A DNA stretch of 64,000 nt from Ignavibacteria bacterium. GTDB lineage: Bacteria > Bacteroidota > Ignavibacteria > Ignavibacteriales > Ignavibacteriaceae. Below are positions 27,179 to 46,600 of this stretch, piece by piece; position 1 is the stretch's first letter; the number at the start of each line of letters is the position of its first letter. Both the position numbers and the translations under genes were made by a program. The notes under the pieces are model-generated. The model saw only the letters and a list, made by a program, of their open reading frames with translations. It did not search any database and was not told the origin of the DNA. The stretch covers positions 1 to 64,000 of the forward strand of contig JAUXVN010000040.1 of assembly GCA_030684555.1 (NCBI GenBank), read 5' to 3'.

Positions 27179-27275
27179 TGGGTTTCTAATTTTCTACTAA
27201 TTCTTTTTCAAAATAAAAATCCTCAACTAATCAATACTTTATTAACAATCAAAAACAAAAAGCTGGGAGGCTTAG

Positions 27276-28946
27276 ATGAATAAGATTAAATACTTATTCC
27301 TTTTTCTTGTCATTTCTTTTTTATCCCCTGTACTTAATGGACAGGTGAATCCACATGAATTACTTATTGCACCCTGGAATGGAAGTAATTATCTCAATGA
27401 TGTTATAGTCGGTGATTCAACAGCAACTGGTGCTCGTGTTGATCCTGATCGCATTTATGTTTTACAACGTAATGGAGTTTATTTTGTCAATACTCCAATC
27501 AGAAATACTGACTGGGTCTTAAATATAAAGGCTCAAGATGGAACAGGTAGAAAACCGGTTATTTTTTTGGTGAAAAATACAACCACTAGTGCAAACCCGG
27601 CTGCGTTTTTACAAGTTGCCGGAAATATTTGGTTGAGCAATTTAATAATTTCCGGTATTCTTGAATCAGATACTTCATCTTACAGTTTGATGCAGGGACA
27701 ATTAATCGGAACTAATCAAGCCGGAAAAGATATTGTCATTGATGGATGTATATTAACCAATAGTAACGGTAATCATATCCGTACAGATCAAGCAACAAGA
27801 GTAATGAAAATTACGAATACCATCTTCGCAAATATGGGTTATCTTGGCAGATCAAATCTTGGTGCAGGCAAAGCAATTGACGTTAGAGCGGTCTCTTGTG
27901 ATTCTTTAGTTTTAGTCAATAATACTTTCGTTAATTTTCAGGATAGAATTATAAGACACTTCAACAGCACTGCTGCAATTAACAATTTTATTTTTGATCA
28001 CAATACAGTTGTTAATGGTATGTCCTATCATGGTACATTGGTACTTGGTATTCTTGGTGCAAAATCTGAAATAACAAACAACTTATTCATTGATCCGTTT
28101 GCACTTGGCAATGATACAGATTACGTTCGTCAAGCTGAATTTAATGAGAGCGGTGAATTAGATCCTGTTGGTAATAGAAGAATGAGTTGGATTTTTTCTG
28201 TTAATAATACAGAGACAAACTGGAAAGTCTCTAACAATTTTTATTCAATATCTGATTCCGGGCAGGCATTTTTTAACAGACATGCTTCTACAGGTGTAAC
28301 AGGTGAAGGTTCTCCTTTATCAAGGCATATCAACAGCAGACTTGGTGCTGATTCTCTAACTGCTTTTGTAAAACAAAGTGTGGTCTTAGCCAACATTCCA
28401 AAGCTTATGACGGCTATGATGGACTGGTATAGAAGACCTGTTGAGCAAGGCGGTGCAGGTAAAACAAAAGCAACCACTAATTTCAATAGATTATTACACG
28501 ATTATAATCGTGCTTCATGGACTTATTTAAGTGATACTTTAAATGGTTCATATTCTACATCTTCGCCAGCGTATAGTGCCGGAACCGGTAGTTTTCCTTT
28601 AGGTGATTTGAATTGGTTCCCTACAAAGAAACAAGAATGGTTGAACTGGATTACTGATGTTAATGAACCGGGTATGACTCCAGTTGAATTTTCATTAAAC
28701 CAAAATTATCCGAATCCATTTAATCCATCAACTAAAATTTCTTTTAATCTTGTTGCTGCCGGTAAAACTAATTTGTCAGTTTTCAATGTGCTCGGACAGA
28801 AAATGGCAACTTTAATAGATGAAGAATTAACCGCCGGTTATCATGAGATTAATTTTGATGCATCAAAACTAACTACAGGTGTTTATTTCTATCGATTAGA
28901 ATCAGGAAATAACTTCTCAATCAAAAAAATGTTATTAGTTAAATAA
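27276..28946 (+). CDS. T9SS-exported parallel beta-helix protein
   Basis: The 556-aa protein has a signal peptide (ending LNGQ) and a body rich in short beta strands, such as GNIWLSNLIISGI, DIVIDGCILTN and VMKITNTIFAN. This is the look of a right-handed parallel beta helix as in pectate-lyase-like and chondroitinase-B-like proteins. The C-terminus carries NQNYPNPFNPSTKISF and ends KKMLLVK, marking T9SS export. No catalytic Arg/Asp cluster can be assigned with confidence. Between a receptor and a pectate lyase, a role in binding or cutting pectin is likely. Confidence 0.75.
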   Translation: MNKIKYLFLFLVISFLSPVLNGQVNPHELLIAPWNGSNYLNDVIVGDSTATGARVDPDRIYVLQRNGVYFVNTPIRNTDWVLNIKAQDGTGRKPVIFLVKNTTTSANPAAFLQVAGNIWLSNLIISGILESDTSSYSLMQGQLIGTNQAGKDIVIDGCILTNSNGNHIRTDQATRVMKITNTIFANMGYLGRSNLGAGKAIDVRAVSCDSLVLVNNTFVNFQDRIIRHFNSTAAINNFIFDHNTVVNGMSYHGTLVLGILGAKSEITNNLFIDPFALGNDTDYVRQAEFNESGELDPVGNRRMSWIFSVNNTETNWKVSNNFYSISDSGQAFFNRHASTGVTGEGSPLSRHINSRLGADSLTAFVKQSVVLANIPKLMTAMMDWYRRPVEQGGAGKTKATTNFNRLLHDYNRASWTYLSDTLNGSYSTSSPAYSAGTGSFPLGDLNWFPTKKQEWLNWITDVNEPGMTPVEFSLNQNYPNPFNPSTKISFNLVAAGKTNLSVFNVLGQKMATLIDEELTAGYHEINFDASKLTTGVYFYRLESGNNFSIKKMLLVK

Positions 28947-29025: not shown

Positions 29026-30354
29026 ATGATAAAATATAAAAACCTTACTTTTCTTTTACTTCTTCTATTAACCCCGGTAAGTTTCCCACAGCTAAAAAGT
29101 TTTCCGGGAGCTGAGGGATACGGACAATTTACTTCCGGTGGAAGGGGGGGTGCTGTAATAGAAGTTACTAACCTAAATGACAGCGGCGAAGGTAGTTTAC
29201 GTTATGCAGTTGAAAAGAAATTTCCACGTACTGTAATTTTTAGAGTATCCGGTATTATTGAACTTCAATCAGAATTAGAAATAAGTCATGGTAACCTTAC
29301 AATTGCAGGTCAAACAGCCCCGGGTGACGGAATCTGTATTAAAGGAAATCGTTTTTCTATTACTGCTGCTGACAACATCATCATTCGCTTTATTCGTTTT
29401 CGTATCGGAGATGAAAACAAAATTCCTGAAGATGCAATATCAGTTATGCGTTGTAAAAATGTTATTATTGACCATTGTTCAATGAGCTGGGGAATTGATG
29501 AAGTAGGAACTTTTTATGACAATGAAAATTTTACTCTTCAATGGTCTATAATTTCAGAAGCACTTAATAATTCTGTTCATCCAAAGGGGGCACATGGTTA
29601 CGGCGGAATTTGGGGTGGTGTGAACGCTACTTTTCATCACAATCTTTTAGCTCATAATTCAAGCAGGAATCCACGATTCAATGGTGCAAGAACTCATACA
29701 ACTCCTGAAACAGAATTGGTTGATTTTAGAAATAATGTAATTTATAATTGGGGAGAAAATAGTTCTTACGGTGGAGAAAAAGGGAATCATAATATTATTG
29801 CCAATTATTATAAAGCCGGACCTGCATCACATAAAAAAAATCGGATCTTAGAACCGTTTGATAATTTGGGTAAATGGTTTATTGATAAAAATGTAGTGGA
29901 AAATTATCCGGATATCACCGAGGATAATTGGAACGGGGGAATACAAGGCAATTATGCAAATGAACCGCAAATTAAAGCTCTAAAAGCATTTGGTAAAGAA
30001 AACATAATAACTCAAACCGCAGAAGAAGCGTATAGTTCAGTTTTAAAATTTAGTGGTGTAATTTTGCCTAAAAGAGATAAAGTTGATTCAAGGATTATTT
30101 GTGAGGTAAAAAATTCCAAAGTTCTTTCCGGTAACGGAATAATCAATTCTCAAAGTGAAGTGGGAGGATACCCTGTTCTAAATTCTCTTACCCCACCTTT
30201 AGATTCTGATAAAGATGGAATCCCAGATGATTGGGAAATTAAAAATAATCTTGACCCGAATGATAATTTAGATGCTAATAAAACCGCAGCAAGCGGTTAT
30301 ACATTTTTAGAAGAATATTTGAATGAACTTGTAAAGGACGCTTATGTTTTTTAA
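29026..30354 (+). CDS. Family PL1 pectate lyase (no T9SS tail)
   Basis: The 442-aa protein has a signal peptide, then FPGAEGYGQFTSGGRGG, the classic start of PL1-type lyases in this lineage, followed by GDGICIKGN, IIIRFIRFRIGDEN and NVIIDHCSMSWGIDE. The Arg in SSRNPRFNGARTH near residue 213 fits the catalytic position of the beta-elimination enzyme, which cleaves polygalacturonate using Ca2+. The end (DSDKDGIPDDWEIKNNLDPN) is a calcium-binding thrombospondin-3/dockerin-like loop. It lacks the sorting tail of its neighbours, so it may stay periplasmic. Its last 11 bases overlap the next gene. Confidence 0.88.
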   Translation: MIKYKNLTFLLLLLLTPVSFPQLKSFPGAEGYGQFTSGGRGGAVIEVTNLNDSGEGSLRYAVEKKFPRTVIFRVSGIIELQSELEISHGNLTIAGQTAPGDGICIKGNRFSITAADNIIIRFIRFRIGDENKIPEDAISVMRCKNVIIDHCSMSWGIDEVGTFYDNENFTLQWSIISEALNNSVHPKGAHGYGGIWGGVNATFHHNLLAHNSSRNPRFNGARTHTTPETELVDFRNNVIYNWGENSSYGGEKGNHNIIANYYKAGPASHKKNRILEPFDNLGKWFIDKNVVENYPDITEDNWNGGIQGNYANEPQIKALKAFGKENIITQTAEEAYSSVLKFSGVILPKRDKVDSRIICEVKNSKVLSGNGIINSQSEVGGYPVLNSLTPPLDSDKDGIPDDWEIKNNLDPNDNLDANKTAASGYTFLEEYLNELVKDAYVF

Positions 30355-31867
30355 TAAATCGAAATCAGTATTATCTGGTTTCAGAATCATTTTATCGGTA
30401 CTTCTCTTCAGTTTTTCATCAATAAGTTATTCACAATTGTATGTTGCAGTTGATGGGAGTGATGAAAATCCGGGCACAATTGATCTTCCGTTAAAAACGA
30501 TAACCCGCGCAATTCAACTCGCTGCTGCAGATACAACAATTTTTGTGCGGGGCGGTGTGCATGAATACAACTCGACTATCAGATTAAATAAAACCGGACA
30601 GGCAGATAAACCGATTAAAATATTCGCTTATCCGGGTGAAAAACCAATTATAGATTTTTCTTCACAACCGGTAGCAACATCTTCACGCGGATTTCAAATC
30701 TCACATAATTACTGGCATGTGAAAGGACTTGAGATCAGAAATGCAGGGGATAACGGTATTCATATTTCAGGTTGGTATAACTTAGTTGAAGAATGCCGAA
30801 TTTATCATTGTTATGATACAGGCATTCAACTTAGTAATGGAGCGAGTCACAATAAAATAATTAATTGTGATTCGTATGAGAATTGTGATAAACATACTAA
30901 CGGTGAAAACGCAGATGGTTTTGCAGCAAAACTTTCTATCGGTCCGGGAAATGAATTCCACGGCTGCCGAGCTTGGGGAAATGCTGATGATGGATGGGAT
31001 TTATATGAGGGGGCAAATGCAGTTATAATTAACGACTGTTGGGCATTCCGAAACGGTTATAATGTATGGGGTTTACCAACATATACCGGTGACGGAAACG
31101 GATTTAAGGTTGGCGGTAACTATGTTCAGGGTCCACATATAGTAACTCGTTCAGTGGCTTTTGATAACAAGCAAAAAGGCTTTGACCAAAATAATAATAC
31201 AGCAGGGATTACATTATACAATAATACTTCTTTTAGAAATGGTACCAGGAATTTTTCATTCCCGTCTAATCCGGCTTCGGGAAAACATATTCTAAAAAAT
31301 AATATATCACATCGATCGGGAACTACAAATTCGATTGTATCAACATCGATAGTTGAAGCAAACAGTTGGGTTGGATTCACAATTAATGATTCTGATTTTA
31401 TTAGTTTAGATACAAGTTTAGCTCTCTCTCCACGCAATGCAGACAGTTCTCTTCCGTATATCGATTTTTTAAGATTATCTCAATTCAGTTTATTTATTGA
31501 TGCAGGAGTTGATGTAGGTTTATCATTTAACGGCACTGCACCCGATCTTGGCGCATTTGAAACTGGTCCTATTTTAAGTGTAAATGAAAACTTTGTTGAA
31601 GCGAGGTCGTTTAAGTTATTAAATAATTACCCAAATCCGTTTAACCCTACAACTACAATAGCATTTTTAATTGATAAAAGAGAACATGTTAAACTTGCCG
31701 TCTATGATATTACCGGAACTCAAATTGATGAACTTGTGAATGATACTTTAGAACCAAATAATTATTCTGTACGGTTTGACGGAAGCCGCTTATCAAGTGG
31801 AATTTATTTCGCAAGACTTTCAACTTCATCAAAACATCAGGTTATTAAACTTCTTCTGATGAAATAA
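30344..31867 (+). CDS. Family PL9 pectate lyase with T9SS sorting domain
   Basis: The 507-aa protein opens LYVAVDGSDENPGTIDLPLK after its signal peptide, a standard PL9 start. ENADGFAAKLSIGPGNEF near residue 188 and WGNADDGWDLYEGANAV near 210 are hallmarks of PL9 (Pel9A-like) enzymes, with Asp residues that bind Ca2+ and a basic residue for beta-elimination. The C-terminus has NNYPNPFNPTTTIAF and ends in KLLLMK, for T9SS export. The 11-bp overlap with the PL1 gene indicates coupled translation. It should act outside the cell on homogalacturonan or the rhamnogalacturonan backbone. Confidence 0.9.
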   Translation: MFFNKSKSVLSGFRIILSVLLFSFSSISYSQLYVAVDGSDENPGTIDLPLKTITRAIQLAAADTTIFVRGGVHEYNSTIRLNKTGQADKPIKIFAYPGEKPIIDFSSQPVATSSRGFQISHNYWHVKGLEIRNAGDNGIHISGWYNLVEECRIYHCYDTGIQLSNGASHNKIINCDSYENCDKHTNGENADGFAAKLSIGPGNEFHGCRAWGNADDGWDLYEGANAVIINDCWAFRNGYNVWGLPTYTGDGNGFKVGGNYVQGPHIVTRSVAFDNKQKGFDQNNNTAGITLYNNTSFRNGTRNFSFPSNPASGKHILKNNISHRSGTTNSIVSTSIVEANSWVGFTINDSDFISLDTSLALSPRNADSSLPYIDFLRLSQFSLFIDAGVDVGLSFNGTAPDLGAFETGPILSVNENFVEARSFKLLNNYPNPFNPTTTIAFLIDKREHVKLAVYDITGTQIDELVNDTLEPNNYSVRFDGSRLSSGIYFARLSTSSKHQVIKLLLMK

Positions 31868-31880
31868 AAATGGAGAGAAT

Positions 31881-33278
31881 ATGAAAAATTATAGATTAAT
31901 CAGATTTGCACTTTTAATATCGATTTTAACAATTGTCTCATGTGATTTTTCAAACTCGCAACGTGACGGGTGGGATAAGTTAGATGAAATAAGAAAAAAT
32001 ATTATTCCCCCTACCTTTCAAGATAAAGATTTTAACATAGTTGATTTTGGTGCTGTTGCTGACGGTAAAACCGATTGTACAGAGGCATTTAGAAAAGCTA
32101 TTTCTGCTTGTAATGAAGCTGGTGGCGGAAGAGTTGTTGTTCCCGAAGGCGAATTTTTTACCGGAGCAATTCATCTTAAAAGTATTGTGAATTTATATCT
32201 TTCAAAAAACTCGGTTATTAAATTTTCTACAAATCCGCAAGACTATCTTCCCCTTGTATTTACAAGGTGGGAAGGGGTTGAATGTATGAATTATTCACCT
32301 CTGATTTATGCTTATGAGCAAGAAAACATTGCAGTTACCGGAAGCGGAATTATTGATGGACAAGGAGCAAATGATAATTGGTGGCCCTGGAAGGGGAACA
32401 AAGTAGACGGCTGGATTGAGGGAACACCTCATCAAAAAAAAGGAAGAGATTTACTTTTCCAAATGGCTGAAGATAATGTTCATCCACAAGAAAGAATTAT
32501 GGGAGAAGGATTTTATCTTCGTCCGAGTTTCTTTCAACCTTACAAATCAAAAAATATTTTAGTAGATGGAGTTACATTCAAAAATTCACCGATGTGGTTT
32601 TTAAATCCCGTTCTGTGTGAAAATGTAACAGTTAAAAATTTAAAGATAGAAGGACTTGGACCAAATAATGACGGCTGTAACCCTGAGTCATCAAAAAATG
32701 TGTTGATCCAAAATTGTTATTTTGATACGGGTGACGATTGCATTGCAATAAAATCCGGTAGAAACAATGACGGAAGAAGAATTAATGTCCCGAGTGAAAA
32801 TATAATTATTGAAGATTGCAATATGAAAGAGGGACATGGCGGTGTAGTAATGGGAAGCGAAATTTCAGGCGGTGTAAGAAATGTTTTTGCACAGAATTGC
32901 GAAATGAGTAGTCCTAACCTCGATAGAGCTTTACGCTTTAAGACAAATGCTGTTCGCGGAGGAACAATAGAAAACATCTACTTTAGAAATATTAAAGTCG
33001 GCGAAGTTAGCGAAGCAGTAATAAAAATTGATTACTATTATGAAGAAGGTAAAAAAGGGAACTTCCTTCCTACCATTCGAAATGTGCATGTTCAAAATCT
33101 TACAAGCGAAAAAAGTAAATTTGCAATATGGATTAAAGCCTTTGATAATGCCCCTGTTACCGGTCTGTATCTTGATAATTGTAATTTTAATCAAGTTGCC
33201 AAAGATAATGTTATCGAACATGTAAAAGATTATAAGTTTAATTCCGTGATGATAAATAATAAAATAATATCCGAATGA
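31881..33278 (+). CDS. Family GH28 polygalacturonase, lipoprotein
   Basis: The 465-aa protein has a lipobox-like SILTIVSC at the end of its signal peptide, so it is probably membrane-anchored. NIVDFGAVADGKTDCTEAF is the GH28 opening. Catalytic motifs appear in order: NNDGCNPES near 264, TGDDCIAIKSG near 284, GHGGVVMGSE near 318 and RFKTN near 351, giving the three Asp, the His and the Arg-x-Lys expected of an inverting galacturonan hydrolase. The start is 13 bases after the PL9 stop, so it belongs to the same operon. It probably trims oligogalacturonides, possibly from the non-reducing end. Confidence 0.93.
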   Translation: MKNYRLIRFALLISILTIVSCDFSNSQRDGWDKLDEIRKNIIPPTFQDKDFNIVDFGAVADGKTDCTEAFRKAISACNEAGGGRVVVPEGEFFTGAIHLKSIVNLYLSKNSVIKFSTNPQDYLPLVFTRWEGVECMNYSPLIYAYEQENIAVTGSGIIDGQGANDNWWPWKGNKVDGWIEGTPHQKKGRDLLFQMAEDNVHPQERIMGEGFYLRPSFFQPYKSKNILVDGVTFKNSPMWFLNPVLCENVTVKNLKIEGLGPNNDGCNPESSKNVLIQNCYFDTGDDCIAIKSGRNNDGRRINVPSENIIIEDCNMKEGHGGVVMGSEISGGVRNVFAQNCEMSSPNLDRALRFKTNAVRGGTIENIYFRNIKVGEVSEAVIKIDYYYEEGKKGNFLPTIRNVHVQNLTSEKSKFAIWIKAFDNAPVTGLYLDNCNFNQVAKDNVIEHVKDYKFNSVMINNKIISE

Positions 33279-33345: not shown

Positions 33346-36300
33346 ATGAGCCTGAACAAAACCATTAAAATAACTACAACAACATTCCTCATTTTTCTAA
33401 TGACTTCGCAACTAAATGTTGCTCAATCGAGAAGTAAAATACAAGGGACGGTTAAAGACACGCAAACGGGAGAAGTTCTTTTTGGGGCAAATGTTGTTAT
33501 ACTTGATACATATTTTGGTGCAGCCACTGATGTTCATGGAAAATATTTTATCATAAATGTTCCGGTCGGTACGTATAGAGTTCAGGCTTCAACAATAGGT
33601 TACAACAAAAATATTGTTACTGAAGTTATAGTTTCCGCAGATAGAGTTACTACCGTTGATTTTGATTTATCCTCGACTATAATTCAGAGTGAAGAAGTTG
33701 TTGTTACGGCTCAAAGAAATTCATTAAATAATGAAGTATCAAATACAATAAATGTTATAACAGCAGAGCAATTGCAAAATACAACCGGGATGAGGGAAGT
33801 TTCATCTTTTCTTGAGAAACAACCCGGGGTTTCATCCGAAAACGGATTTTTACAAATAAGAGGCGGTTCATCGGATCAAACAGGAACATTTGTAAATGGA
33901 ATGGCATATAATAATGCGGCTGTCGGTAATGCTGAAACATCTATTCCCTTAAGTTCAATTGAACAAGTTTCATTACTCTCGGGAGGTTTCAATGCTGAAT
34001 ACGGGAATTTCCGTTCGGGATTAATTAACATTACTACAAAATCAGGTTCGAAGGATACGTATAAAGGGACAATATCAATTTCGAAGAATGCCCCGATGGT
34101 GAAACGTTTTGGTCCACTTATGAGTGATCCATATTCACCGGCATTGAGACCTTATTTAGATCCAGCTTTAGCTTTTTATGGAACAGATAACACATGGAAA
34201 GATACCGACCCTTATCTTTATCAGCAGCATGATCGATTTGATGGCTGGATTGGGGCAGCAAATTCATTTAATCAAACTAATCCGCGGTACCCGGCTTCGC
34301 CAATGGATTATTATTACCTTGCATCCTGGATGCACATGGCGGTTCCCGATTATGAAGGTTTATCAAAACTCCCTGATAGCGTAAAAACTGCTATCGGTTA
34401 TTATGAATTATCAGATGAGCAAAAAAAATTATTTAATGATCATTCATGGGATGAAGAGGGAAGTGATTACAATTTTGATTTAGGTTTTGGAGGTCCAATT
34501 CCTTTCATAAGTAAAATGCTTGGTGATATGACTTTTTATCTTTCACACAGTACAAAGGAAACTAATTATATTATTCCGGTTAGTAGAAAAAGTCAAAAAT
34601 CACACGTTACTTTATTAACGATGAAGACTAATCCACTCGAGTCACTTACTATAACGATAAACGGATTATGGAAAAGACAATTTGGTGTAAGCCCTATTAA
34701 ACCGGCATTCGGTGATTTTCCCGATGCTGCGAGAGAAGGGGGCTTTATGACAACAGATAACCTTAAATATTTTGCGCGTCTATCTAATCTCGATGGCGGA
34801 GTAAATTATTGGTACACTCCGCCTATGTTCCCACAACTTAATCAAACAACTTTGATGGGGGGATTTTCAATAAATCATGTTCTTAATCAAAGAACATTTT
34901 CTGAATTTGCAGCAAGTTATTTGTCGATAAGAGATGATGCTCCTGTTGGCGATAATCGGGATCCTTCAATACTTACAATGTTTGGACCGTTTCCCGTAAC
35001 AGAAATGCCTTATGGAAAATGGCAATTTGCTCCTAATAACCGGTTAACTTATATCACTCCAACCGATACAATAAGTTATCTTTATCCAAATTATGATGCT
35101 CTACCGGGTGTAATAAGAAGATTCAGAGGGAAAGAGGGAGACTTATATACAAATGTACATACACAGCAACAGCGCGTTAAGTATGATTTAGTTTCGCAAA
35201 TCGGAGATCACAATTATTTCAAAGGCGGAATAGAATATAATCGTTTTGATATTGATCATAAAATGTGGATGAAGTGGAACAGAACCGGTCCTTATAATTC
35301 TTATGAATTCAATTACCGTCGAACTCCGAGCACAACCGGTATGTACTTACAAGATCAAATTTCTTATGAAGGTGTAATTGCTAATTTGGGATTACGAATG
35401 GATTATTTCTACGGCGGCGGTGGTAAATGGCCTACAGGAGATCCGTTCGCTTTTGCATTTACTTCTGCATTTGGCGAAGCTCCACGAGATCCCGGTGCAG
35501 CTACAGATTCATTCTATGCTGCTTTAGCTTCAGGGCGTTCATTGATTTGGGAAAAGTGGGAAGATTATGATAAGCAAAATCCCGGATTCCTTGCACCTGT
35601 GAAAAACTTTACTACATTCAGTCCAAGACTCGGAATTTCATTTCCTGTTACCGAACGGGCAAAATTTTATTTTAATTATGGACACTTCAGATCAAATCCG
35701 CCTTATTCGACAATGTTTTTAGTCCGTTATCGATACGACAAAAATGGTTTATATGATATGGCTAATCCTAATCTTGAACCTCCTAAAACAGTTTCCTACG
35801 AGCTTGGGGCGGCATATAATCTGCTTGATAACTACTTAATAAATGTATCGGGTTATTATAAAGATATAACCGGACAAAATGGTGATGTCAATTATAAAAG
35901 CAGTTCAGGAAGTATTGATTATGATTTGTGGGAGAATAATAACTATCAAGATATTCAAGGGATTGAAGTAAATATTACTAAAAACGATAACAGTTGGATT
36001 ACCGGATGGGTGAACTTCAATTACATGTTAAAAAAATCAGGTTTAACCGGAAGAGCAATCGTTTCTGACGTAACAATTAATGATGATAGAGCGGGTTTAT
36101 ATTCTGCACAAGAAAGCAGATTTTTACCACTTCCCATTTTAAATGCTAACATTACTCTAAATGCACCCCGCGATTTGTTTGAAGAGAATATTCTACTGAA
36201 CTCACTATTAGCCGGATGGAGTACTACTTTCTTTTTTGAATGGAAAACTGGTGATTACTTCACATGGAACCCACTCAACAAACTTCATGTAAGTAATAAT

Positions 36301-36702
36301 ATGCAATGGCCCGATTATGTTATGCTTAACATGAAAATGAGTAAATCGTTTAATGTTAGAGGCATTGGAATAACTTTCTTTGTTGATGTATCAAATCTTC
36401 TTAATAACAAAATCAGTATGTTGAATAAAGGTTATGCATTCAGAAGAAGCAATATTGATGCGGGTAGTTTTACCGAATGGGCTGATACCAAAAATTATTT
36501 AGCTTCACTACAACTGCCTGAGTATAATTCTCCTGAATATGATAATCTGCGTGAACAAAATGCCGGTAAGTATATCGCCGGAGAGGATAAAGTTGGAGAT
36601 TTAAGGTCTGAATCGAAACCATACATCAACGATCCCGATTATTCCTACTTCATTTATGGTCAGCCGCGGGATATTTGGTTCGGTCTTAAACTAGATTTTT
36701 AA
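33346..36702 (+). CDS. Second pectin-locus TonB-dependent receptor
   Basis: The 1118-aa protein follows AAGGAG and starts with a signal peptide. It then has a carboxypeptidase-like domain (KIQGTVKDTQTGEVLFGANV), a plug with QPGVSSENGFLQIRGGSSDQ and LSGGFNAEYGNFRSG, and a long barrel ending in the C-terminal Phe of FGLKLDF. The plug and barrel resemble the large receptors typical of Ignavibacteria that lack a SusD partner. It is followed by an uncharacterised secreted protein and a PorV-like protein in tight spacing, suggesting the three work together at the outer membrane. Confidence 0.88.
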   Translation: MSLNKTIKITTTTFLIFLMTSQLNVAQSRSKIQGTVKDTQTGEVLFGANVVILDTYFGAATDVHGKYFIINVPVGTYRVQASTIGYNKNIVTEVIVSADRVTTVDFDLSSTIIQSEEVVVTAQRNSLNNEVSNTINVITAEQLQNTTGMREVSSFLEKQPGVSSENGFLQIRGGSSDQTGTFVNGMAYNNAAVGNAETSIPLSSIEQVSLLSGGFNAEYGNFRSGLINITTKSGSKDTYKGTISISKNAPMVKRFGPLMSDPYSPALRPYLDPALAFYGTDNTWKDTDPYLYQQHDRFDGWIGAANSFNQTNPRYPASPMDYYYLASWMHMAVPDYEGLSKLPDSVKTAIGYYELSDEQKKLFNDHSWDEEGSDYNFDLGFGGPIPFISKMLGDMTFYLSHSTKETNYIIPVSRKSQKSHVTLLTMKTNPLESLTITINGLWKRQFGVSPIKPAFGDFPDAAREGGFMTTDNLKYFARLSNLDGGVNYWYTPPMFPQLNQTTLMGGFSINHVLNQRTFSEFAASYLSIRDDAPVGDNRDPSILTMFGPFPVTEMPYGKWQFAPNNRLTYITPTDTISYLYPNYDALPGVIRRFRGKEGDLYTNVHTQQQRVKYDLVSQIGDHNYFKGGIEYNRFDIDHKMWMKWNRTGPYNSYEFNYRRTPSTTGMYLQDQISYEGVIANLGLRMDYFYGGGGKWPTGDPFAFAFTSAFGEAPRDPGAATDSFYAALASGRSLIWEKWEDYDKQNPGFLAPVKNFTTFSPRLGISFPVTERAKFYFNYGHFRSNPPYSTMFLVRYRYDKNGLYDMANPNLEPPKTVSYELGAAYNLLDNYLINVSGYYKDITGQNGDVNYKSSSGSIDYDLWENNNYQDIQGIEVNITKNDNSWITGWVNFNYMLKKSGLTGRAIVSDVTINDDRAGLYSAQESRFLPLPILNANITLNAPRDLFEENILLNSLLAGWSTTFFFEWKTGDYFTWNPLNKLHVSNNMQWPDYVMLNMKMSKSFNVRGIGITFFVDVSNLLNNKISMLNKGYAFRRSNIDAGSFTEWADTKNYLASLQLPEYNSPEYDNLREQNAGKYIAGEDKVGDLRSESKPYINDPDYSYFIYGQPRDIWFGLKLDF

Positions 36703-36757
36703 TTTCAGAAAATATCATATACAAAAGAATTTTTGAAAGTCCCAAAGGAGTTTGATA

Positions 36758-38941
36758 ATGAATAAAATTATTAATATAAATAAAAGAAAACGTATTCTGC
36801 TTCTATTTTTGTTTGTCTCATTGATGTTGGGTTCAAATGTAGAAGCGCAAAATCCTGAACTTGCGACCGCAATTGTTAAAGTCGGGAAGATATGGGGTGG
36901 AATTGTTGGGAATGGTGATCAGGCAACATTTGATTTTCGAGCAGGATTTTTTCCGAATGATTTTGGTATTCTTCAGTACAGAGGACAACAATCAGATAAT
37001 TATTTCGGTTCAGGTTTCAGAATGGGAGCAACAGGCTGGCTTGCCCCAAATGATTCACTCTACACAGTAGGACTCTTTGGACCTAAAAATGATTTTATGC
37101 CTGCCGGTAAGGTTGTTGTTCCTTTAACAAGTTTTATAAGATATAAATATCCCGAGCAAATAGTTAATGGTAATCCAGTTGCGATTCCAATGTTCACAAA
37201 TTATGACCCGACTAAATTTACCTCGGGCACTTACGATCAAGTGGTGGAAGTTACCAGCAAAAATATTATTGGTGTAGAAGTTAAAAGAAGAGTCCTTGCA
37301 TGGAGTCAAACATTTAATGATAATTATGTTATTGTTGAAGTTGAATTAACAAATGTCGGAGTCGACAAAACAAACGGATCCGTTTATCAAGACACACTTC
37401 GAAATTTTCATTTTGGAATGTCGCAAGGTATGGCAAACAATTATTATTCATACGGGAATAATCCCGCTCCACCTTCAAATGAAAGACCAAATTATCAATA
37501 CGTTTGGCAAAATTATTATGGTGCAAGACCAGGGGATTCATTACGTCTATTTTATTTTTATGGTGCCGATGATCCCGGTACTCCGGGGGACAATATGGGA
37601 GCTCCGGCATTAAGCCAAAACGGAAGATTGTTAAATACGAATTATACTTTTTATTCGATACTCCACGCTTCAGCAACTCCATTTACAAATATTGCTCAAG
37701 ATGTAGATGATTTTCTTCAGCCGCGTGTTACCTACATCGGAACTGAAACTAAAATCCCAAGTCCTGAAGGAGGGGAAGATCCTTACGGAAGTAAAAATTA
37801 TTGGGCAATGCGCGGAGGTTATTCTGACAAATTTCCACGAGCAAATATTCATCCTGGGACTCACCACGGAGTTGTGAATGATGAACTTGGTGTTCCCGAT
37901 TTTTCTTCATTCCCTGCAGGTGTTGTTCAAGCTGTTAATTCAAAAAACTTCAGTAGTTTCGGACCATATAACTTTCCGCCGAATGCAAAGTTGAGATTTG
38001 TTTATGCAGTTGGTACAGCCGGAATAGGGGAACAAACTGCTAAAGAAGTAGGTGAGAAATGGTTAGCCGGAACATTAACCGATCCGCCAAATATGCCTGA
38101 TCCAAATACCGGATGGCTGCCTTCAAATTTTGCTTTCCCCAATGGTGCTACAGAAATGGATAAGAAAAAAGCCCGTTGGATAAGCATGGGACGAGATTCT
38201 GTTATGCTTACCGCTTGGCGCGCAAAATGGAATTCTGATAACAATTATGAAATCCCCCAATCACCACCTCCCCCTTCACATTTTTCAGTAACAGGTTATG
38301 GTGATGGTGTTGAGTTGAAATGGAAAAATGCCGAGGCAGAAGCTCTTCCAAATTTCGCCGGATATATTATAATGAGACGAATTTCAAATATGGATACAGT
38401 CTTCTACAATGAAGTTTATTCATCCGATGCTACTGATAAAGCTGATGAGCATGTTTACAAAGATCAAACGGTTGTTCCCGGAGCGCAGTATTACTATTAT
38501 ATTCAGAGTAAAGCCTTAATTGATGCGAATGATTCTAAAGCCGATCCAACCACACGCGGAAAAATTATTTATAGCGGAAGGGCTTATATTCCAAACGTAA
38601 CATTTATCAATCCACCAAGATTTTCAACTGATGATATGGCACGCATTCGAATAGTCCCGAATCCTTATAACATAAATGATCCTTTATTAAAAGCCTACGG
38701 TTATGTTGATCAAAGAGGAATTAATTTCTTTAATCTGCCGCAAGCTGTTACTATTAAAATTTATACAGAGCATGGGGACCTTGTACAAACCATTGAACAT
38801 AATAGTCCCGAAAGAGCCGGTTCTTATACGTGGGATATGATTTCTTCATCGCAGCAGGTAATTAACAGCGGACTTTACATCGCCGTTTTTCAAAAACCGA
38901 ACGGTGAAGTTGCTTATCACAAATTTTTAGTAGTAAGGTAA
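36758..38941 (+). CDS. Large exported protein of unknown function, receptor-linked
   Basis: ATG 36758 is chosen because AAAGGAG ends seven bases before it. The protein of about 727 aa has a long signal peptide ending VEAQ. The first about 480 residues, with KVGKIWGGIVGNGDQATFDF and RMGATGWLAPND, match nothing I can name. A fibronectin-like part (about 505-600, SVTGYGDGVELKWKNAEAE) and a C-terminal domain follow, with RIVPNPYNINDP and ending KFLVVR, a divergent T9SS-like tail without the usual NPFNP. Placed between a receptor and a PorV-like protein, it might take the glycan-binding role that SusD plays elsewhere; this is inference. Confidence 0.65.
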   Translation: MNKIININKRKRILLLFLFVSLMLGSNVEAQNPELATAIVKVGKIWGGIVGNGDQATFDFRAGFFPNDFGILQYRGQQSDNYFGSGFRMGATGWLAPNDSLYTVGLFGPKNDFMPAGKVVVPLTSFIRYKYPEQIVNGNPVAIPMFTNYDPTKFTSGTYDQVVEVTSKNIIGVEVKRRVLAWSQTFNDNYVIVEVELTNVGVDKTNGSVYQDTLRNFHFGMSQGMANNYYSYGNNPAPPSNERPNYQYVWQNYYGARPGDSLRLFYFYGADDPGTPGDNMGAPALSQNGRLLNTNYTFYSILHASATPFTNIAQDVDDFLQPRVTYIGTETKIPSPEGGEDPYGSKNYWAMRGGYSDKFPRANIHPGTHHGVVNDELGVPDFSSFPAGVVQAVNSKNFSSFGPYNFPPNAKLRFVYAVGTAGIGEQTAKEVGEKWLAGTLTDPPNMPDPNTGWLPSNFAFPNGATEMDKKKARWISMGRDSVMLTAWRAKWNSDNNYEIPQSPPPPSHFSVTGYGDGVELKWKNAEAEALPNFAGYIIMRRISNMDTVFYNEVYSSDATDKADEHVYKDQTVVPGAQYYYYIQSKALIDANDSKADPTTRGKIIYSGRAYIPNVTFINPPRFSTDDMARIRIVPNPYNINDPLLKAYGYVDQRGINFFNLPQAVTIKIYTEHGDLVQTIEHNSPERAGSYTWDMISSSQQVINSGLYIAVFQKPNGEVAYHKFLVVR

Positions 38942-38955
38942 GAAGGGAGATTATC

Positions 38956-39960
38956 ATGAAAAAAACAATATTGATTGCACTGCTCTTAATTCTTACTTCG
39001 TTAACAACGACCTACTCGCAGGTTAGTCTGAATAAGGTTGCTCAAACCACAATGAACTTTTTGCTTGTCGGAACATCACCTAAAGCCTCTGCTATGGGAG
39101 AAGCCTTTACCGCTTACGGCTCAGGGGTGGAAGGAATGTTTTATAATCCGGCGGGAATGGCTGAAATGAATTCTCAGTTTAATGTAACTGTTAATTATAC
39201 AGATTGGATTGCCGATATTAATTATTTAAGCGGCGGAGTTGCATGGAATCTTAATAACCTCGGCGTTATCGGTATAAATTTATTAACAGTTGATTATGGC
39301 ACAATCCATGGGACAAGCCTTCTTGGAGCCGGGGAAAGTGATTTATTTCCTCTTGGTTATAAAGATAATGGTAATGTAAGTAATGTCGGAGCTTATTCAG
39401 TTGGTATAACTTATGCTAAATCAATCTCTGAACAATTTGCTTTTGGAGGTACTGTTCGATTTGCGGGACAGAATCTCGGACAAAATCTTCTTGAGAGCGG
39501 AATGAAAGATAATAATGCTTCAAAATTAGTTTTTGATTTAGGTGTGAAGTATAAAACTTTCTTTAACGGATTTGCATTCGGTATGTCGATTAGAAATTTT
39601 GCTTCGAACATTAAGCGCGAAGAAATAGATGAACAACTACCGCTCGTTTTTGCATTAGGAGCTTCAATCAATTTAATGAATTTTATTCTTCCCGAGCATG
39701 ACGGGGCACTTCATTTAGCAACTGATTTTCTGCATCAGAATAATTACTCTGAAAGAATTAATGTCGGATTGGAATATATATTTTTGAATATGCTTTCAGT
39801 GCGAGGCGGTTATCAAACAAATCGTGATCTGGCTTCATGGTCAGGTGGTGTTGGATTTAATTATTCACTCTTCGATTACGAAGTTGAAGTTAATTACTCA
39901 TATTCCCGTTACGAAATTTTTAATAGTGTAAATAGATTGTCACTTCTTTTTGCGTTTTGA
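38956..39960 (+). CDS. PorV/PorQ-like outer-membrane protein
   Basis: The 334-aa protein has a signal peptide and FLLVGTSPKASAMGEAFTAY followed by VEGMFYNPAGMAEM, the opening of PorV/PorQ and related UPF0164 barrel proteins. The strand-rich remainder ends in the aromatic LSLLFAF, typical of outer-membrane barrels. PorV is the T9SS shuttle protein that carries cargo to the attachment complex. This copy is 14 bases after the unknown exported protein and may be a dedicated partner for it rather than the housekeeping PorV. Confidence 0.8.
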   Translation: MKKTILIALLLILTSLTTTYSQVSLNKVAQTTMNFLLVGTSPKASAMGEAFTAYGSGVEGMFYNPAGMAEMNSQFNVTVNYTDWIADINYLSGGVAWNLNNLGVIGINLLTVDYGTIHGTSLLGAGESDLFPLGYKDNGNVSNVGAYSVGITYAKSISEQFAFGGTVRFAGQNLGQNLLESGMKDNNASKLVFDLGVKYKTFFNGFAFGMSIRNFASNIKREEIDEQLPLVFALGASINLMNFILPEHDGALHLATDFLHQNNYSERINVGLEYIFLNMLSVRGGYQTNRDLASWSGGVGFNYSLFDYEVEVNYSYSRYEIFNSVNRLSLLFAF

Positions 39961-40050
39961 TATATAAACTGTTAGCCTCATTCTCAATTGCGATAATACT
40001 GCGTTTAGCGAGATGAATCTCGCCCTAAAATTTTTAAATTAATTTCGTAG

Positions 40051-40155
40051 GGAACGGTCGAGACCGTTCCGCCCTTTGGATAAGAGGTAATATCTTATTT
40101 TAAGAATATATTTCGATAATTCTATTGTTTAATGCGGAACAGTCGCGACTGTTCC
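40051..40155. repeat. Inverted pair of REP-like palindromic repeats
   Basis: GGAACGGTC-GA-GACCGTTCC at 40051-40070 and the perfect palindrome GGAACAGTCGCGACTGTTCC at 40136-40155 are copies of one unit. The first is flanked by GTAG...GC and the second by the reverse, GC...CTAC, so they face each other about 65 bases apart, like a BIME. They fill the 267-bp gap between two genes. Confidence 0.75.
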
Positions 40156-40227
40156 CTACATCTAAAACCCCAAAAATTTTTAATTCATTAAAAGAAATCA
40201 CTTTTCACTAATTATCATTAAAATAAA

Positions 40228-43200
40228 ATGAAGATTAAATATACTTATCTGATTGTTCTACTATTGATGGGGTGCACATCAATGTTTGCTCAAGATGCAT
40301 CAGCATTATATTCGCTCTCAAGCAGTTCAACCACATCTGTAACGGTTAACGGAAGTATTGTTGGGTTTAATGAATCTTTCAGCGGGATGACAATTAATAA
40401 TTATTCAGGACCAAATTCAAGTCAACGTATTACAACTTTAAACGGAAGTTGGTCGGGGGAAACAGGACAAAATGATCAGCGGTTTATTCAATTTGCAGTT
40501 ACTCCGCAAACCGGAAACAATTTTTATATAACATCAATAGCAATGAGTATTGGAGCTGCCGGTGGCGGTAATATGAGAGCAAATATCAGATACTCAACCG
40601 ATTCAACTTTTGCAACATCACTATTACTTAATTTTACTCCATTGGTTTTACCGAGCGGTGCTTTTCTTTCACCTTCGCCTAATTATCAATTAAACCAATC
40701 GGTTTATGATGGTGAAGTATTTTATCTAAGAGTTTATCCCTGGTACACATCCGCCTCAACCGGAAAATATGTTTGTCTGCAAAATGTTAATATTTCGGGA
40801 GCAACGGTCGGAGCCGCTATTATCAATGTTTCAGTGAGCTCGTTGCAAACATTCGGTGCAGTTGTTTCGGGGACAACCTCTTTTTCGCAACAGTATGTCG
40901 TTTCAGGTTCAAATTTATCAGGAAATGTAACCATCAATGCTCTATCAAATTTTGAAATAAGCAGTGATAACTCAAGTTTCAGTAACTCATTAGAATTTCA
41001 AAACAGCGACGGAAGTTTGTCATCTACAACTGTTTATGTTAGATTTTCTCCAACATCAGCATCGGGGACAGTGAGTGGACTAATAACTCATAACAGTATA
41101 AATGCAGGTCCAAAAACTGTTATGGTTGAAGGGATAAGTGTTTCTTCTGAGCCGACACTACATTCAACTATTTCCTTCGGAAATGTTACCGGAAATTCGA
41201 TGGATGTTAATTTTATCGGCGGAAACGGCAATAGAAGAATCGTAGTTATTAAAAAAGATTCACAAGTTGATTGGCTACCAGCAGACGGTGTTGTGATTAG
41301 CGGAGTTAGTAATAATTTTCTGAATGCAGTAAATCAATCTAACGGAAATAAAGTCGTTTATGACGGGAGCGAAAACAGTGTTAATGTTGTCGGATTATCG
41401 AGCAATGTAACTTATCATTTTGCGGTATATGAATACAATGTCGGTACGAACAATTCGCAAAACTATTTAACTTCATCATTTGGAACAGGAAATCAAACTA
41501 CCCTTGCAGTCCCGACTATTACCATTAATCCTGAAGTTTTAGAATTCGGTAATGTCGGTGTAGGAACAACATCTTCAGAAAAAACATATACAATAAGTGG
41601 TGCAACACTTTCACCTTCAAGTGGAAATATAACTATTAATGCTCCGACCGGTTACGAAATATCTTTAACAAGCGGAAACGGATTCAGTAATTCAATTTTT
41701 ATTCCGTACACAAATACTTCGTTCGGAAATACAACGGTTTATGTAAGATTTAAGCCCACATCAATTACAACCTATAACGGGGACATTGTAAATTCAGGCG
41801 GTTCAGCTCCTTCGCAGCAAGTTGAAGTATCAGGAAATGGTATGGTTCCGAATTCTCAACAGAATGTAGATGTAATTGTGGCTCAAGACGGAACCGGTGA
41901 TTTTACAACAATTCAGGAAGCAATCAATTCTATCCCGGCAAACAACAGTGTTATGAAAGTAATCTTAATCAAAACGGGGACTTACAACGAAAAGATTTAT
42001 ATATCTAACAGTAACATTACTTTAGTCGGTGAAGAGAGAGAAAACACAAAAATCATTTATGCAGAGTTGCGTTCGAACTGGCATATAACAAGCGGCGGAA
42101 GCGATTGGGGTGCTGCCACATTGAATATAAACAGCGGAGTTAGCAATTTAGTTTTAGCAAATCTTACAATATATAATAACTATGGTTCACTATTCGGCAG
42201 TACGGATCATCAATTTGCGATAAGAGGTGCGACAGCCGATAGAATTATTATAATCAATTGTGATATTAAAGCTGATGGTGGAGATACTTTATCATTATGG
42301 AATGTCACATCAGGAAAATATTATCACTACAACTGCTACTTTGAAGGTAATGTTGATTTTGTTTGTCCGCGCGGATGGTGTTATATAAGTGATAGTAAAT
42401 TTTATCAACGAAGTGCATCTGCAAGTGCGAGTATTTGGCATGATGGAAGTGCAAATCAAAATTCTAAGTTCGTAATTAAAAATTCGAGATTTGACGGAGT
42501 TCCAAATTTTGCACTCGGGCGTCATCACCTTGATGCACAATTTTATTTGATTGATAATACTTTTTCATTCAATATGAAAAATCAACCTATTTTCTTTGCT
42601 GTTTCAAATCCACCTAATACATTGCAGTGGGGACAAAGATATTATTACTTCAATAATTTTAGAGATTCAATAAATTATACTTGGTATGCAAACAATTTAG
42701 ATAGCGCATTAGGCTCGCCGGTACCCCATCAAATCACGGCGGAATGGACTTTCTCAACGGCACCAACAACCTGGAATCCCGAAGCTAACTTTCCGGTTGT
42801 ATTACCGAATGCAGAATTTCCTAAACCGGAAAGGAATCAAACTGAAGTGAGTAAAACCGGATTAGCTTTAACCTGGATAACAGGAAGAAGAGCAACTTCT
42901 TATAATGTTTACTTCGGAAATTCAAATCCACCTCAGTTTATTGGGAATCAAACAGAGACATATTTTAGTCCTTCCAATCTAAGCGACACCACACAATATT
43001 TCTGGCGAATTAATGCAGTTACACCTTACGATACAATTCAAGGGGAAGTCTGGTCATTCACAACTTCGAATGAAAATGTAGTTCCGGTTGAACTTGAATC
43101 ATTCGGAGCTTCACGTGTAAACGGAAAAGTAAAATTGGAATGGATTTCCAAATCAGAAAAAAACAATTACGGTTTTGAGATTGAGAAAAATGTAAATGAA

Positions 43201-43653
43201 TCAAGTTGGATTAAGATTGGTTTTGTTGAAGGAAAAGGGACATCAACACAAAAATCAAATTATTATTTTATTGATGAAAGTTTAATCAATTCAAATAAAG
43301 TTATCAAGTACAGATTAAAACAAATCGATTTTAACGGAACATTTGAATACTCAAAAGAAGCCTTAATTGATGCGGGTAAACCCTGTTCTTATAATTTGTA
43401 TCAAAACTTTCCAAATCCATTTAATCCCGAAACAAACATCAAATATGAAATTATGAATAATCAATTCGTCACTCTAAAGATATACGATTCACTCGGTCAA
43501 GAAGTTAAAACATTAATAAATGAAGAACATGAAGCCGGTTATTATACACAACAATTCAGCATACACGATGTAGGCACATCCAGCGGTGTTTATTTTTATC
43601 GTCTCATTGCAGGTGATTTTATAAACACAAAAAAAATGACTTTGATAAAGTAA
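40228..43653 (+). CDS. Multidomain T9SS-exported pectin methylesterase (CE8)
   Basis: The 1141-aa protein has a signal peptide and several immunoglobulin-like domains (about 25-545). The CE8 domain (about 547-850) starts VIVAQDGTGDFTTIQEAINS. GNVDFVCPRG near 709 carries the nucleophile Asp, with ALGRHH near 770 giving the conserved Arg; the usual Q-D-T-L is G-D-T-L and L-G-R-P-W is changed to L-G-R-H-H. A fibronectin-like segment precedes the tail NFPNPFNPETNIKY...KKMTLIK. It removes methyl esters from homogalacturonan, making it accessible to the lyases. Part of its N-terminus is shared with the PL1 protein at 53.6-57.3 kb. Confidence 0.88.
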   Translation: MKIKYTYLIVLLLMGCTSMFAQDASALYSLSSSSTTSVTVNGSIVGFNESFSGMTINNYSGPNSSQRITTLNGSWSGETGQNDQRFIQFAVTPQTGNNFYITSIAMSIGAAGGGNMRANIRYSTDSTFATSLLLNFTPLVLPSGAFLSPSPNYQLNQSVYDGEVFYLRVYPWYTSASTGKYVCLQNVNISGATVGAAIINVSVSSLQTFGAVVSGTTSFSQQYVVSGSNLSGNVTINALSNFEISSDNSSFSNSLEFQNSDGSLSSTTVYVRFSPTSASGTVSGLITHNSINAGPKTVMVEGISVSSEPTLHSTISFGNVTGNSMDVNFIGGNGNRRIVVIKKDSQVDWLPADGVVISGVSNNFLNAVNQSNGNKVVYDGSENSVNVVGLSSNVTYHFAVYEYNVGTNNSQNYLTSSFGTGNQTTLAVPTITINPEVLEFGNVGVGTTSSEKTYTISGATLSPSSGNITINAPTGYEISLTSGNGFSNSIFIPYTNTSFGNTTVYVRFKPTSITTYNGDIVNSGGSAPSQQVEVSGNGMVPNSQQNVDVIVAQDGTGDFTTIQEAINSIPANNSVMKVILIKTGTYNEKIYISNSNITLVGEERENTKIIYAELRSNWHITSGGSDWGAATLNINSGVSNLVLANLTIYNNYGSLFGSTDHQFAIRGATADRIIIINCDIKADGGDTLSLWNVTSGKYYHYNCYFEGNVDFVCPRGWCYISDSKFYQRSASASASIWHDGSANQNSKFVIKNSRFDGVPNFALGRHHLDAQFYLIDNTFSFNMKNQPIFFAVSNPPNTLQWGQRYYYFNNFRDSINYTWYANNLDSALGSPVPHQITAEWTFSTAPTTWNPEANFPVVLPNAEFPKPERNQTEVSKTGLALTWITGRRATSYNVYFGNSNPPQFIGNQTETYFSPSNLSDTTQYFWRINAVTPYDTIQGEVWSFTTSNENVVPVELESFGASRVNGKVKLEWISKSEKNNYGFEIEKNVNESSWIKIGFVEGKGTSTQKSNYYFIDESLINSNKVIKYRLKQIDFNGTFEYSKEALIDAGKPCSYNLYQNFPNPFNPETNIKYEIMNNQFVTLKIYDSLGQEVKTLINEEHEAGYYTQQFSIHDVGTSSGVYFYRLIAGDFINTKKMTLIK

Positions 43654-43692: not shown

Positions 43693-46600
43693 ATGAAAAA
43701 ACTAGTAACAATTTTCTCGTTGGCCATTATTCTTTTCTTTTGGTCTTTTGCTGAAGAAGTAAAGGGTCAAGATGCTTTTATGGGATATGACTATGTGACA
43801 ACAACATATCCTCTTGCGTGGACGATTGAAGCCACAACTTTTAATTCCGGTACTGCCAAGGAATTAATTTATGCTCCTTCGGGAGGTGCTCTTTATACTG
43901 CTACAACTTGTAATACTTCAAGTATTAATGGCTATCAAATTAATGCAACTGCGGCGCATGTTGAAATGAATTTGACTGCCAACAGCAGCACTTCTACAAT
44001 TACAAGTATAACTTTTACCGGAAGTACAAATAATAACACTACTGCAGGTGATGCCGGGGTAGTATTCTCAAGTGAATATCCTTTTAATACCTCCAAAGTT
44101 GTTGGAGCATCTGCGGTGCCGTTTCCTTCTGCTACTGGTGAATGGATTGTACTTAATCCTACAATTCCTGCTGATGCAAAATCTATGCGAATTTATAGAA
44201 GAGTTTATTATAATGCTACTGACTCTACAATGAGTACTTCAACTGGAACCGGATTTGTCCAATACGGTACAAATACAACAATCAGGTTAGCTTCATTAGC
44301 AGTCACACTAAGTGCATCAGGAACAGCTCCAACTTTAACTACAGCCGCTATCACAGACATTGGTCAGATTACGGCTACAGGTGGCGGTAATGTGAGTGAT
44401 TCAGGAAGTGCATCCGTGACTGTTAGAGGTGTTTGCTGGAGTACGAGTGAAAATCCAACAATAACAGATTCAAAAACAGAAGACGGATCAGGAACAGGTG
44501 TATTTGCAAGCTCATTAACAGGATTAACTTCAAGTACAACATATTATGTTCGTGCTTATGCGACAAATTCAGTTGGAACATCTTACGGAGATCAAGTCTC
44601 TTTTACAACTTTAGTGGGAACTCCGTCAATAGTTTTATCTTCAGAAAATCCGGCTGTAGCAGCTGGTGAAATCGGTTTGGGTACTTTAAAAAATATAGTA
44701 TATAAATTTTCACTTGATGTTACGGTTACCGGAGCACAATTAACTCAAGTTGATTTTACTACTATAGGAACTTATTTAGCTTCAGATGTAGCTAAGTTTC
44801 AATTATGGTATAGTTCAAGTGATCAGTTTTCAAATGCAGTTCAAATCGGAAGTGATATAATCGCATCGCTTGGAGCGGGTGCTCATTCTTTTGGATCGGT
44901 AAACCAAAACATGTCAGCTTTAGCAACAGGATATTTATGGATTACAACAGATGTTGCGATGAATGCTGTCTCCGGAAGAACTTTAGCTGTTTCAGCATTA
45001 ACTACGACTGACTTAATTTTCGATGCTGGTAATAAAAGCGGAACAGCCTACGATGGCGGCGTTCAAACAATTGTTGGCGGAACTTTACCGACTGAATTTT
45101 TCAGAAGTGTAACGACAGGCGATTGGAACTCAGCTTCCTCATGGGAAGCCTCAGTAGATGGAATTAGCTGGAGCAATTCAACAGTTTCTCCTGACTCAAC
45201 AAGTGCGGGAATTTTAGTTAGAGCCGGAGATACTCTTTATGTAACAGAATCAGTTATAGTAGATCAAGTAGTTGTTAATGAAGGTGGAGCGATTGAAGTT
45301 AACGGAAGTCCCGTTGTATTTACAATCGCAAATGGTTCCGCAGATGTTGATATGCTTGTTAATGGAACATTAAAAGTAACAGGAACCGCAATAGTTTCTC
45401 CCGGACCTTACTCGGTATCACTGTCAACAGATGCAGTATTAAGTTTCGGTGCAACGGGTGTTTATGAGCATAATCAAAATGCAGGAGCTATTCCGGTTTC
45501 GGTTTGGAATACGGGTTCAACGTTAAAGTTAACAGGTGTTGTTTCAGGCTCACCTGCAAACGGAAATCAAAATTTCTATAATATCATTTGGGATTGTGCA
45601 GCTCAAACTTCAAGCTTAAATCTTGGTTGGACTGATGTTACCATTGGCGGAAATATTAATGTTGTAAATACAAATACAGGTAGATGGCAATTCTGTGCTC
45701 CAACAACCGGGTCATCAGCAACTGTGAATATTATGGGTGATGTTACACTTGCTGCCGGAAATTTAACAACTAACGGAACAAGTAACGGAAATACAACTAT
45801 TGTGATTAATCACTACGGAAATATTAATGTAACAGGTGGTAACTTCGCTATTACACGAGGTTCTCAAGGTGGTACCGGAACTTCATACTGGTATTTGTTT
45901 GGTGGTAATTTCACAATGTCGAATGCCACTACGCAAAATTCGAATTCTGCAGGTGGTAGATTTGTATTCAAAGGTTCAACCCCACAATCATTAAATCTAA
46001 CTAATGTAACTTTTACTGGCAGCGGATTGCCATTAATTGTTGACAGCAATGCTATAGTCAATTTAGGTAATAGTGTTGTTGGTGGAAGTGGTGTATTTAC
46101 AGTTAATCCATTAGCTACTATCAACACTGCTATGGAAACCGGATTTGACGGAAATATAACAACTACAGGAATAGTTACATTAAGTCCAGAAGCCAATTAC
46201 GGATATAACGGAACAGCGACTCAAGTCACCGGAACTAAGTTACCTTTAACAGTAAGCGGACTCAATATTAATAATGTTAGCGGAGTAACTTTAGGTTCAA
46301 ACTTAACTGTAAACGGAGAATTAAATGTAAGCTCAGGATATTTAAATCTGAATGGATTCGACGTAACTCTTGGTGCTGAGGCTTCTTTAGTTGAAGCTCC
46401 GAATGCAACTGTTAAAGGATTAACAGGAAAAATTTCTGCAACAAGAACATTAAATAATCCTTCAGCAGTGAATGTTGCCGGAATGGGAGCAGTTATTACA
46501 TCAGCATTAAATTTGGGTGAAACTGTTCTTGAACGTTATCATTCTGCACCAACAGGAAATAATAATAGTGCTGTTTACAGATATTATAAAGTAACACCAA

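Follow-up and report, generated by a model that had tools for sequence, protein, structure and literature searches.

The window considered here is a 64,000-nucleotide stretch of DNA from an Ignavibacteria bacterium (assembly GCA_030684555.1, contig JAUXVN010000040.1, positions 1 to 64,000, forward strand), and the subject is a trio of genes at 33346-39960 that encode a TonB-dependent outer-membrane receptor, a 727-residue protein referred to below as the middle protein, and a barrel of the PorV/PorQ family. The middle protein carries a tail of the kind used by cargo of the type IX secretion system (T9SS). Gene calls are simple open reading frames (ORFs). The close spacing of the three genes, pointed out in an earlier, sequence-only reading of this DNA, is exact in coordinates, sizes and intergenic gaps, which measure 55 bases between the receptor and middle genes and 14 bases between the middle and PorV-like genes. 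The genes and their parts are as follows.

33346..36702, + strand: TonB-dependent outer-membrane receptor, 1118 residues (Pfam CarbopepD_reg_2, Plug and TonB barrel)
33439-33705, + strand: CarbopepD_reg_2 domain of the receptor (Pfam)
33733-34011, + strand: plug of the receptor (Pfam), followed by the beta-barrel
36758..38941, + strand: middle protein, 727 residues, proposed surface capture subunit, with signal peptide, super-beta-sandwich, fibronectin type III (Fn3) domain and T9SS tail
36842..38272, + strand: super-beta-sandwich and linker helices of the middle protein, residues about 29-505 (model, VIA-align)
38255..38620, + strand: Fn3-like domain of the middle protein, residues 500-621 (VIA-align)
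38630..38938, + strand: C-terminal T9SS domain of the middle protein, resembling the retained, barrel-docked kind of PorZ and PorU, residues 625-727
38956..39960, + strand: PorV/PorQ-family barrel, 334 residues, proposed anchor or shuttle of the middle protein (NF033709)

The middle gene starts at ATG 36758 and stops at 38941; an alternative TTG at 36752, given by the ORF tool, would lengthen the product to 729 residues. A ribosome-binding-like AAAGGAG lies 5′ of the middle gene start, and AGAAGGGAG lies 5′ of the start of the PorV-like gene. Promoter and terminator scans gave numbers near chance and were not used. The receptor has the SusC/RagA domain layout in Pfam, with a CarbopepD_reg-like N-terminal domain, plug and TonB barrel, and no SusC-specific NCBIfam model was among its matches at E 0.1 or better, in a library whose SusC content was unchecked. 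The PorV-like protein belongs to the NCBIfam PorV/PorQ family NF033709 (174 bits, cut-off 90) and falls just below the cut-off of the Pfam PorV family (26.3 bits, cut-off 27). It scores far below the equivalog cut-offs of PorV of the T9SS (NF033710, 67 bits, cut-off 250) and of PorQ (NF033711, 82 bits, cut-off 220). The middle protein has no Pfam family above cut-off.

The trio is a conserved cassette, and the linkage of its genes is far beyond chance. Homologues were collected with the middle protein as sole bait from genomes of the same family, order, class and phylum, plus named genomes, many of the genomes sampled being metagenome bins; the search of the named genomes used a six-member alignment of middle proteins, the first alignment being too divergent. 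The collection holds 172 homologues, 156 of them with a readable upstream gene. A TonB receptor lies directly 5′ on the same strand in 152 of these 156 (median gap 15 bases), a 153rd has the receptor two genes upstream, and only three have none within two genes upstream. A PorV-family gene stands beside or near the middle gene in 156 of 167 readable homologues, at position +1 in 110, at +2 in 27 and upstream in 19. These counts bear out the sequence-only reading that the three genes form one unit whose members co-occur, and the 727-residue family is nearly always found with receptors rather than apart from them. Among 127 trios, pairwise distances correlate at 0.95 between receptor and middle protein, 0.84 between middle protein and PorV-like barrel, and 0.86 between receptor and barrel, and all three values exceed all 999 Mantel permutations. 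Named records that bear trios come from Ignavibacteria, Melioribacter, Stygiobacter, Neomarinimicrobiota, KSB1, Calditrichota and Bacteroidetes. The trios L205 and L206 lie in bins labelled Planctomycetota and Actinomycetota (one each), which may reflect misassigned bins or transfer.

Sequence search of the middle protein against solved structures gave no match. The protein was described from an AlphaFold2 model built from 71 sequences (predicted local distance difference test, pLDDT, 83; predicted TM score, pTM, 0.84), and the fold matches given here rest on predicted models. The model consists of a signal helix, a beta-rich domain at residues 37 to about 422, main helices at 425-494, an Fn3 domain and the tail. 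In VIA-align, the N-terminal half matches GH116 8i5o (Z 17.1, 279 residues, 3.8 Å), GH94 5nz7 (Z 16.4) and GH65 (Z 14.2); a super-beta-sandwich with linker helices as in these families is present (Z 13-17), and rows 1-42 are mostly super-beta-sandwich sugar-processing enzymes, the PorZ tail aside. The sandwich also resembles the polysaccharide lyase domain 5nok (Z 11.3, VIA-align). The catalytic (alpha/alpha)6 barrel of GH94, GH116 and GH65 is absent from the model, in which residues 506-727 are Fn3 and T9SS tail. The N-terminal half, previously called novel, has a new sequence but a known fold, a super-beta-sandwich without the catalytic barrel. The fibronectin-like part that had been proposed is upheld by the structure model, with a match to the LAR Fn3 domain 6tpw (Z 10.7, 93 residues, 2.0 Å, VIA-align), and Foldseek rows with fibronectin proteins reflect the Fn3 domain alone.

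In SusCD systems the capture job is done by SusD, a lipid-anchored tetratricopeptide repeat (TPR) protein. The middle gene holds the SusD-type position, directly downstream of a TonB receptor; the middle protein itself is not SusD. It has no SusD match (PF07980, PF14322 and kin) in Pfam at E 0.1 or better, and no N-terminal TPR helical fold, the confident model being beta-rich over residues 37-422. SusD folds do not appear among the fold matches either, though this absence carries no weight as evidence. A lipobox for a lipid anchor occurs in 1 of 127 family members, that one being an over-extended start.

A second class of middle protein, for example L258:4543-8112, is about 1190 residues long, with Asp-rich loops and no Pfam family, and is present in 72 of 80 genomes of the family. 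Profile comparison aligns it with the first class over the tail only. Its model (pLDDT 76, pTM 0.65) combines a super-beta-sandwich, matching GH94-type domains at Z 17-18, with Fn3 and a tail like that of PorZ, and since the separate models of the two classes agree, both share one predicted architecture.

The tail of the middle protein has the Ig-like fold of type A T9SS cargo and is closest in structure, by VIA-align, to PorZ 5m11 (2.1 Å, 90 residues) and PorU 6za2 (2.3 Å, 88 residues). Against TIGR04183, the model of type A cargo, it scores 14.4 bits, below the cut-off of 23; the divergent sorting tail noticed from sequence is supported by the structure model. A type B tail (CHU_C) was rejected at 17.9 bits, under the cut-off. 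The tails of PorU and PorZ are retained, with PorV and PorQ as the respective anchors of the two proteins (PMC5562754; PMC10202324; PMC11285876), and resemblance to these uncleaved tails suggests that the tail of the middle protein may likewise be kept after export. When coordinates of tail matches and PorV-family matches were compared by hand, the nine best genome matches to a profile of the middle-protein tail (59.9 bits or more) were all directly 5′ of a PorV-family gene. For ordinary type A tails (TIGR04183), 0 of 150 among the matches listed are followed by a PorV-family gene within 400 bases. Type B cargos come with PorP/SprF barrels of their own (PMC9143113; PMC12618676), and PorV-like partner barrels have been suggested to protect tails from cleavage (PMC10202324). 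Because of the PorZ/PorU-like tail, the pairing of tail and barrel genes, and the published precedents of PorU, PorZ and type B cargos, the middle protein would be held by its own barrel. The PorV-like protein, earlier proposed as a carrier, does appear to be a dedicated partner, but it looks more like a permanent anchor of the PorQ-PorZ or PorV-PorU type than a passing carrier.

The host genome contains ten trios. Besides those of the window, C40 and C41, there is a variant at C51, and in the other six (C45 twice, C75, C72, C105 and C127) the middle protein is longer, at 912-1191 residues. The ten trios hold 10 of the 30 TonB plugs of the genome, in which 14 PorV-family genes exceed the cut-off. 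The genome also encodes SprA, as well as PorU (1026 bits) beside a likely PorV scoring 249.6 bits against a cut-off of 250, so that an ordinary T9SS exists apart from the trios. At L265:8018-9646, a 542-residue protein with a PorU-like tail adjoins two PorV-family genes, possibly as a PorZ-PorQ-like pair. SusD has no match in the host genome; PF07980 has none in 67 of 78 relatives and PF14322 none in 36 of 41.

The trio of the window lies in a run of pectin genes that spans about 24 to 62 kb and includes the following.

29026-30354, + strand: PelZ-like protein, upstream, conserved beside orthologous trios
30344-31867, + strand: PelN-like protein, upstream, conserved beside orthologous trios
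31881-33278, + strand: GH28, upstream, conserved beside orthologous trios
40228..43653, + strand: pectinesterase with T9SS tail, 3′ of the trio, conserved beside orthologous trios (Pfam)
53550-57302, + strand: pectate lyase
57302-58516, + strand: GH88/105-type enzyme
58556-59587, + strand: LacI regulator
59637-60620, + strand: TRAP solute-binding protein DctP

Within the clade of the window (26 tree rows; Shimodaira-Hasegawa-like approximate likelihood ratio test, SH-aLRT, 99), pectin or galacturonate gene matches lie beside the trio in 25 of 26 members, with strong neighbour matches to GH28, GH88, PelZ, PelN, pectinesterase, UxaC, UxaA and UxaB. Pectin labels beyond this clade are noisy, as BLAST matches of at least 130 residues can arise from T9SS-tailed neighbours, and were not used. 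Since pectin and galacturonate genes accompany the trios of the clade, pectin-derived oligosaccharides are the likely ligand of the trio in the window.

Like SusCD and RagAB, the trio has a receptor with an N-terminal CarboxypepD-like domain, a surface-partner gene directly 3′ and a polysaccharide locus. Unlike these, its partner is without a SusD/RagB domain, TPR fold or lipobox, and instead combines a super-beta-sandwich and Fn3 with a T9SS tail, accompanied by its own PorV-like barrel. In the largest other clade (not that of the window), the trio is followed by a TIG-domain lipoprotein in the spot of the surface glycan-binding proteins that come after susD in SusCD loci. This lipoprotein (L042:5727-7016) is the conserved fourth gene of that clade, after the PorV-like gene (40 loci clustered). 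With PorZ-PorQ and PorU-PorV of the T9SS attachment complex, the trio shares the tail fold and a PorV/PorQ-family partner barrel, whereas its pair goes with a TonB receptor rather than the secretion machine and has many paralogues per genome. Cargos with a type B C-terminal domain and PorP/SprF also show a cargo gene followed by a dedicated barrel gene, with anchoring by the barrel proposed; in contrast, the tail of the trio has a type A-like Ig fold and its barrel is of the PorV/PorQ family. The BtuB-BtuG vitamin B12 importers likewise pair a TonB receptor with a surface protein other than SusD (PMC10404256). They differ from the trio in that BtuG is a lipoprotein at the cell surface and a vitamin is the ligand. 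Neither a T9SS tail nor a PorV partner is known for BtuB-BtuG. A related sandwich fold is also found in GLMP (6nyq, Z 11.4, VIA-align), the accessory subunit of a lysosomal transporter, which forms a tight complex with the transporter MFSD1 (PMC6819133; PMC11252000). MFSD1-GLMP differs from the trio in being eukaryotic and in handling dipeptides, and no kinship is claimed; by analogy only, sandwich domains could serve as transporter subunits.

On balance, the trio is rather probably a TonB-dependent importer of pectin oligosaccharides, parallel in kind to SusCD, with a T9SS-secreted surface capture subunit anchored by its own PorV-like barrel. Secreted pectinases would cut pectin at the cell surface. 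The middle protein would be exported through Sec and then the type IX system, and its C-terminal domain, probably uncut, would remain docked to the protein's own PorV/PorQ-like barrel, in the manner of PorZ with PorQ and PorU with PorV, and this would hold the protein at the surface. The super-beta-sandwich and Fn3 would then sit over or beside the receptor, capturing oligogalacturonides and passing them to the receptor, which would import them with TonB energy. The earlier proposal of a SusD substitute is sustained in that the middle gene takes the place of SusD beside the receptor in genomes mostly without SusD. Computation shows the conservation of the cassette, its predicted domains, the pairing of tail and barrel genes, the pectin setting and the lack of SusD matches in the host genome, whereas complex formation, the retained tail, the lid-like role and the ligand are inferred.

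Several points weigh against this assignment. The nine other trios of the host genome have no substrate link, no sugar-binding site was identified in the middle protein, and the sandwich domain in the clade of the window lacks a basic character (mean net charge -15, compared with -17 in other clades), so that charge gives no sign of pectate binding. Contact between receptor and middle protein is argued from gene order and correlated distances, both of which shared ancestry alone can yield; shared ancestry contributes to the correlations, which do not prove contact. Nor is the pairing absolute, as the middle genes L121, L227 and L235 have no adjoining PorV gene and the divergent L044 and L154 no adjacent receptor. 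Finally, the retained tail is argued solely from resemblance to PorZ and PorU.

The middle protein might alternatively be a secreted enzyme or a stand-alone sugar-binding protein, with the barrel as a mere shuttle and the receptor as a co-regulated neighbour working alone. The glycosidase/phosphorylase origin of its fold, the match to the lyase domain 5nok (Z 11.3) and the enzymatic nature of its T9SS-tailed neighbours would fit such a role. However, the catalytic barrel of the matched families is missing, residues 506-727 being Fn3 and tail. Across phyla, and also in trios outside pectin loci, no other neighbour is as close and as constant as the receptor, and the distance correlations link it as tightly as the shuttle. 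This alternative is unlikely. It is more doubtful still that the PorV-like barrel, as a general paralogue, serves many cargos as a second shuttle, its gene neighbourhood reflecting dosage instead of specific pairing. In favour of this, a single PorV serves every type A tail in Flavobacterium johnsoniae, and there is some crosstalk among type B shuttles (PMC12618676). Against a general shuttle stand the 14 PorV-family genes of one genome, in which each strong special tail comes with its own barrel, and the correlated divergence of the trio members.

A sensing module, in which ligand binding by receptor and surface partner sends a signal to the cell with no bulk import, appears very improbable. 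Some TonB receptors do signal, and a histidine kinase (50066-51319) and the LacI regulator (58556-59587) are nearby, but a FecR/sigma pair was not observed next to the trio, and the galacturonate catabolism genes UxaC, UxaA and UxaB in related loci, together with the TRAP solute-binding protein in the window, fit feeding.

SusCD is the textbook route of complex-glycan uptake in Bacteroidota, and many lineages of the wider Bacteroidota group are without SusD. There is perhaps an even chance that the importer proposed here represents a third broad design of TonB import in the Bacteroidota supergroup, composed of a receptor, a T9SS-secreted super-sandwich lid and a PorV-like anchor, that replaces SusCD in SusD-less lineages and is present in many substrate-specific copies per genome. 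If so, the trio would explain how these lineages feed, and its many natural pairs would test the suggestion that a PorV-like partner barrel shields a T9SS tail from cleavage (PMC10202324). Each element of the trio has precedent; what looks new is how they are combined and how widely the combination occurs. In agreement with the earlier view of an undescribed complex, no description of the trio was found in open-access full text on PorV, TonB, SusD, T9SS and the lineages concerned, subscription papers and preprints lying outside the search. As none of the middle proteins tested reaches the cut-off of a Pfam family, hundreds of homologues are probably annotated 'hypothetical protein'.

Other features of the window accompany the trio. 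The histidine kinase at 50066-51319 has a PAS domain and is embedded in the pectin cluster, which also contains three large T9SS-tailed proteins without a recognised catalytic domain (43693-47385, 47473-49896 and 51384-53489), possibly new pectin-active proteins. At 24140-28946, a second, different TonB receptor (TIGR01782, 331 bits) is followed by a 556-residue T9SS-tailed protein without a recognised enzyme domain, and this pair is conserved next to some of the orthologous trios. Intergenic palindromes of similar sequence, GGAACGGTCGAGACCGTTCC and GGAACAGTCGCGACTGTTCC, lie 3′ of the trio at 39990-40170 and resemble a small dispersed repeat.

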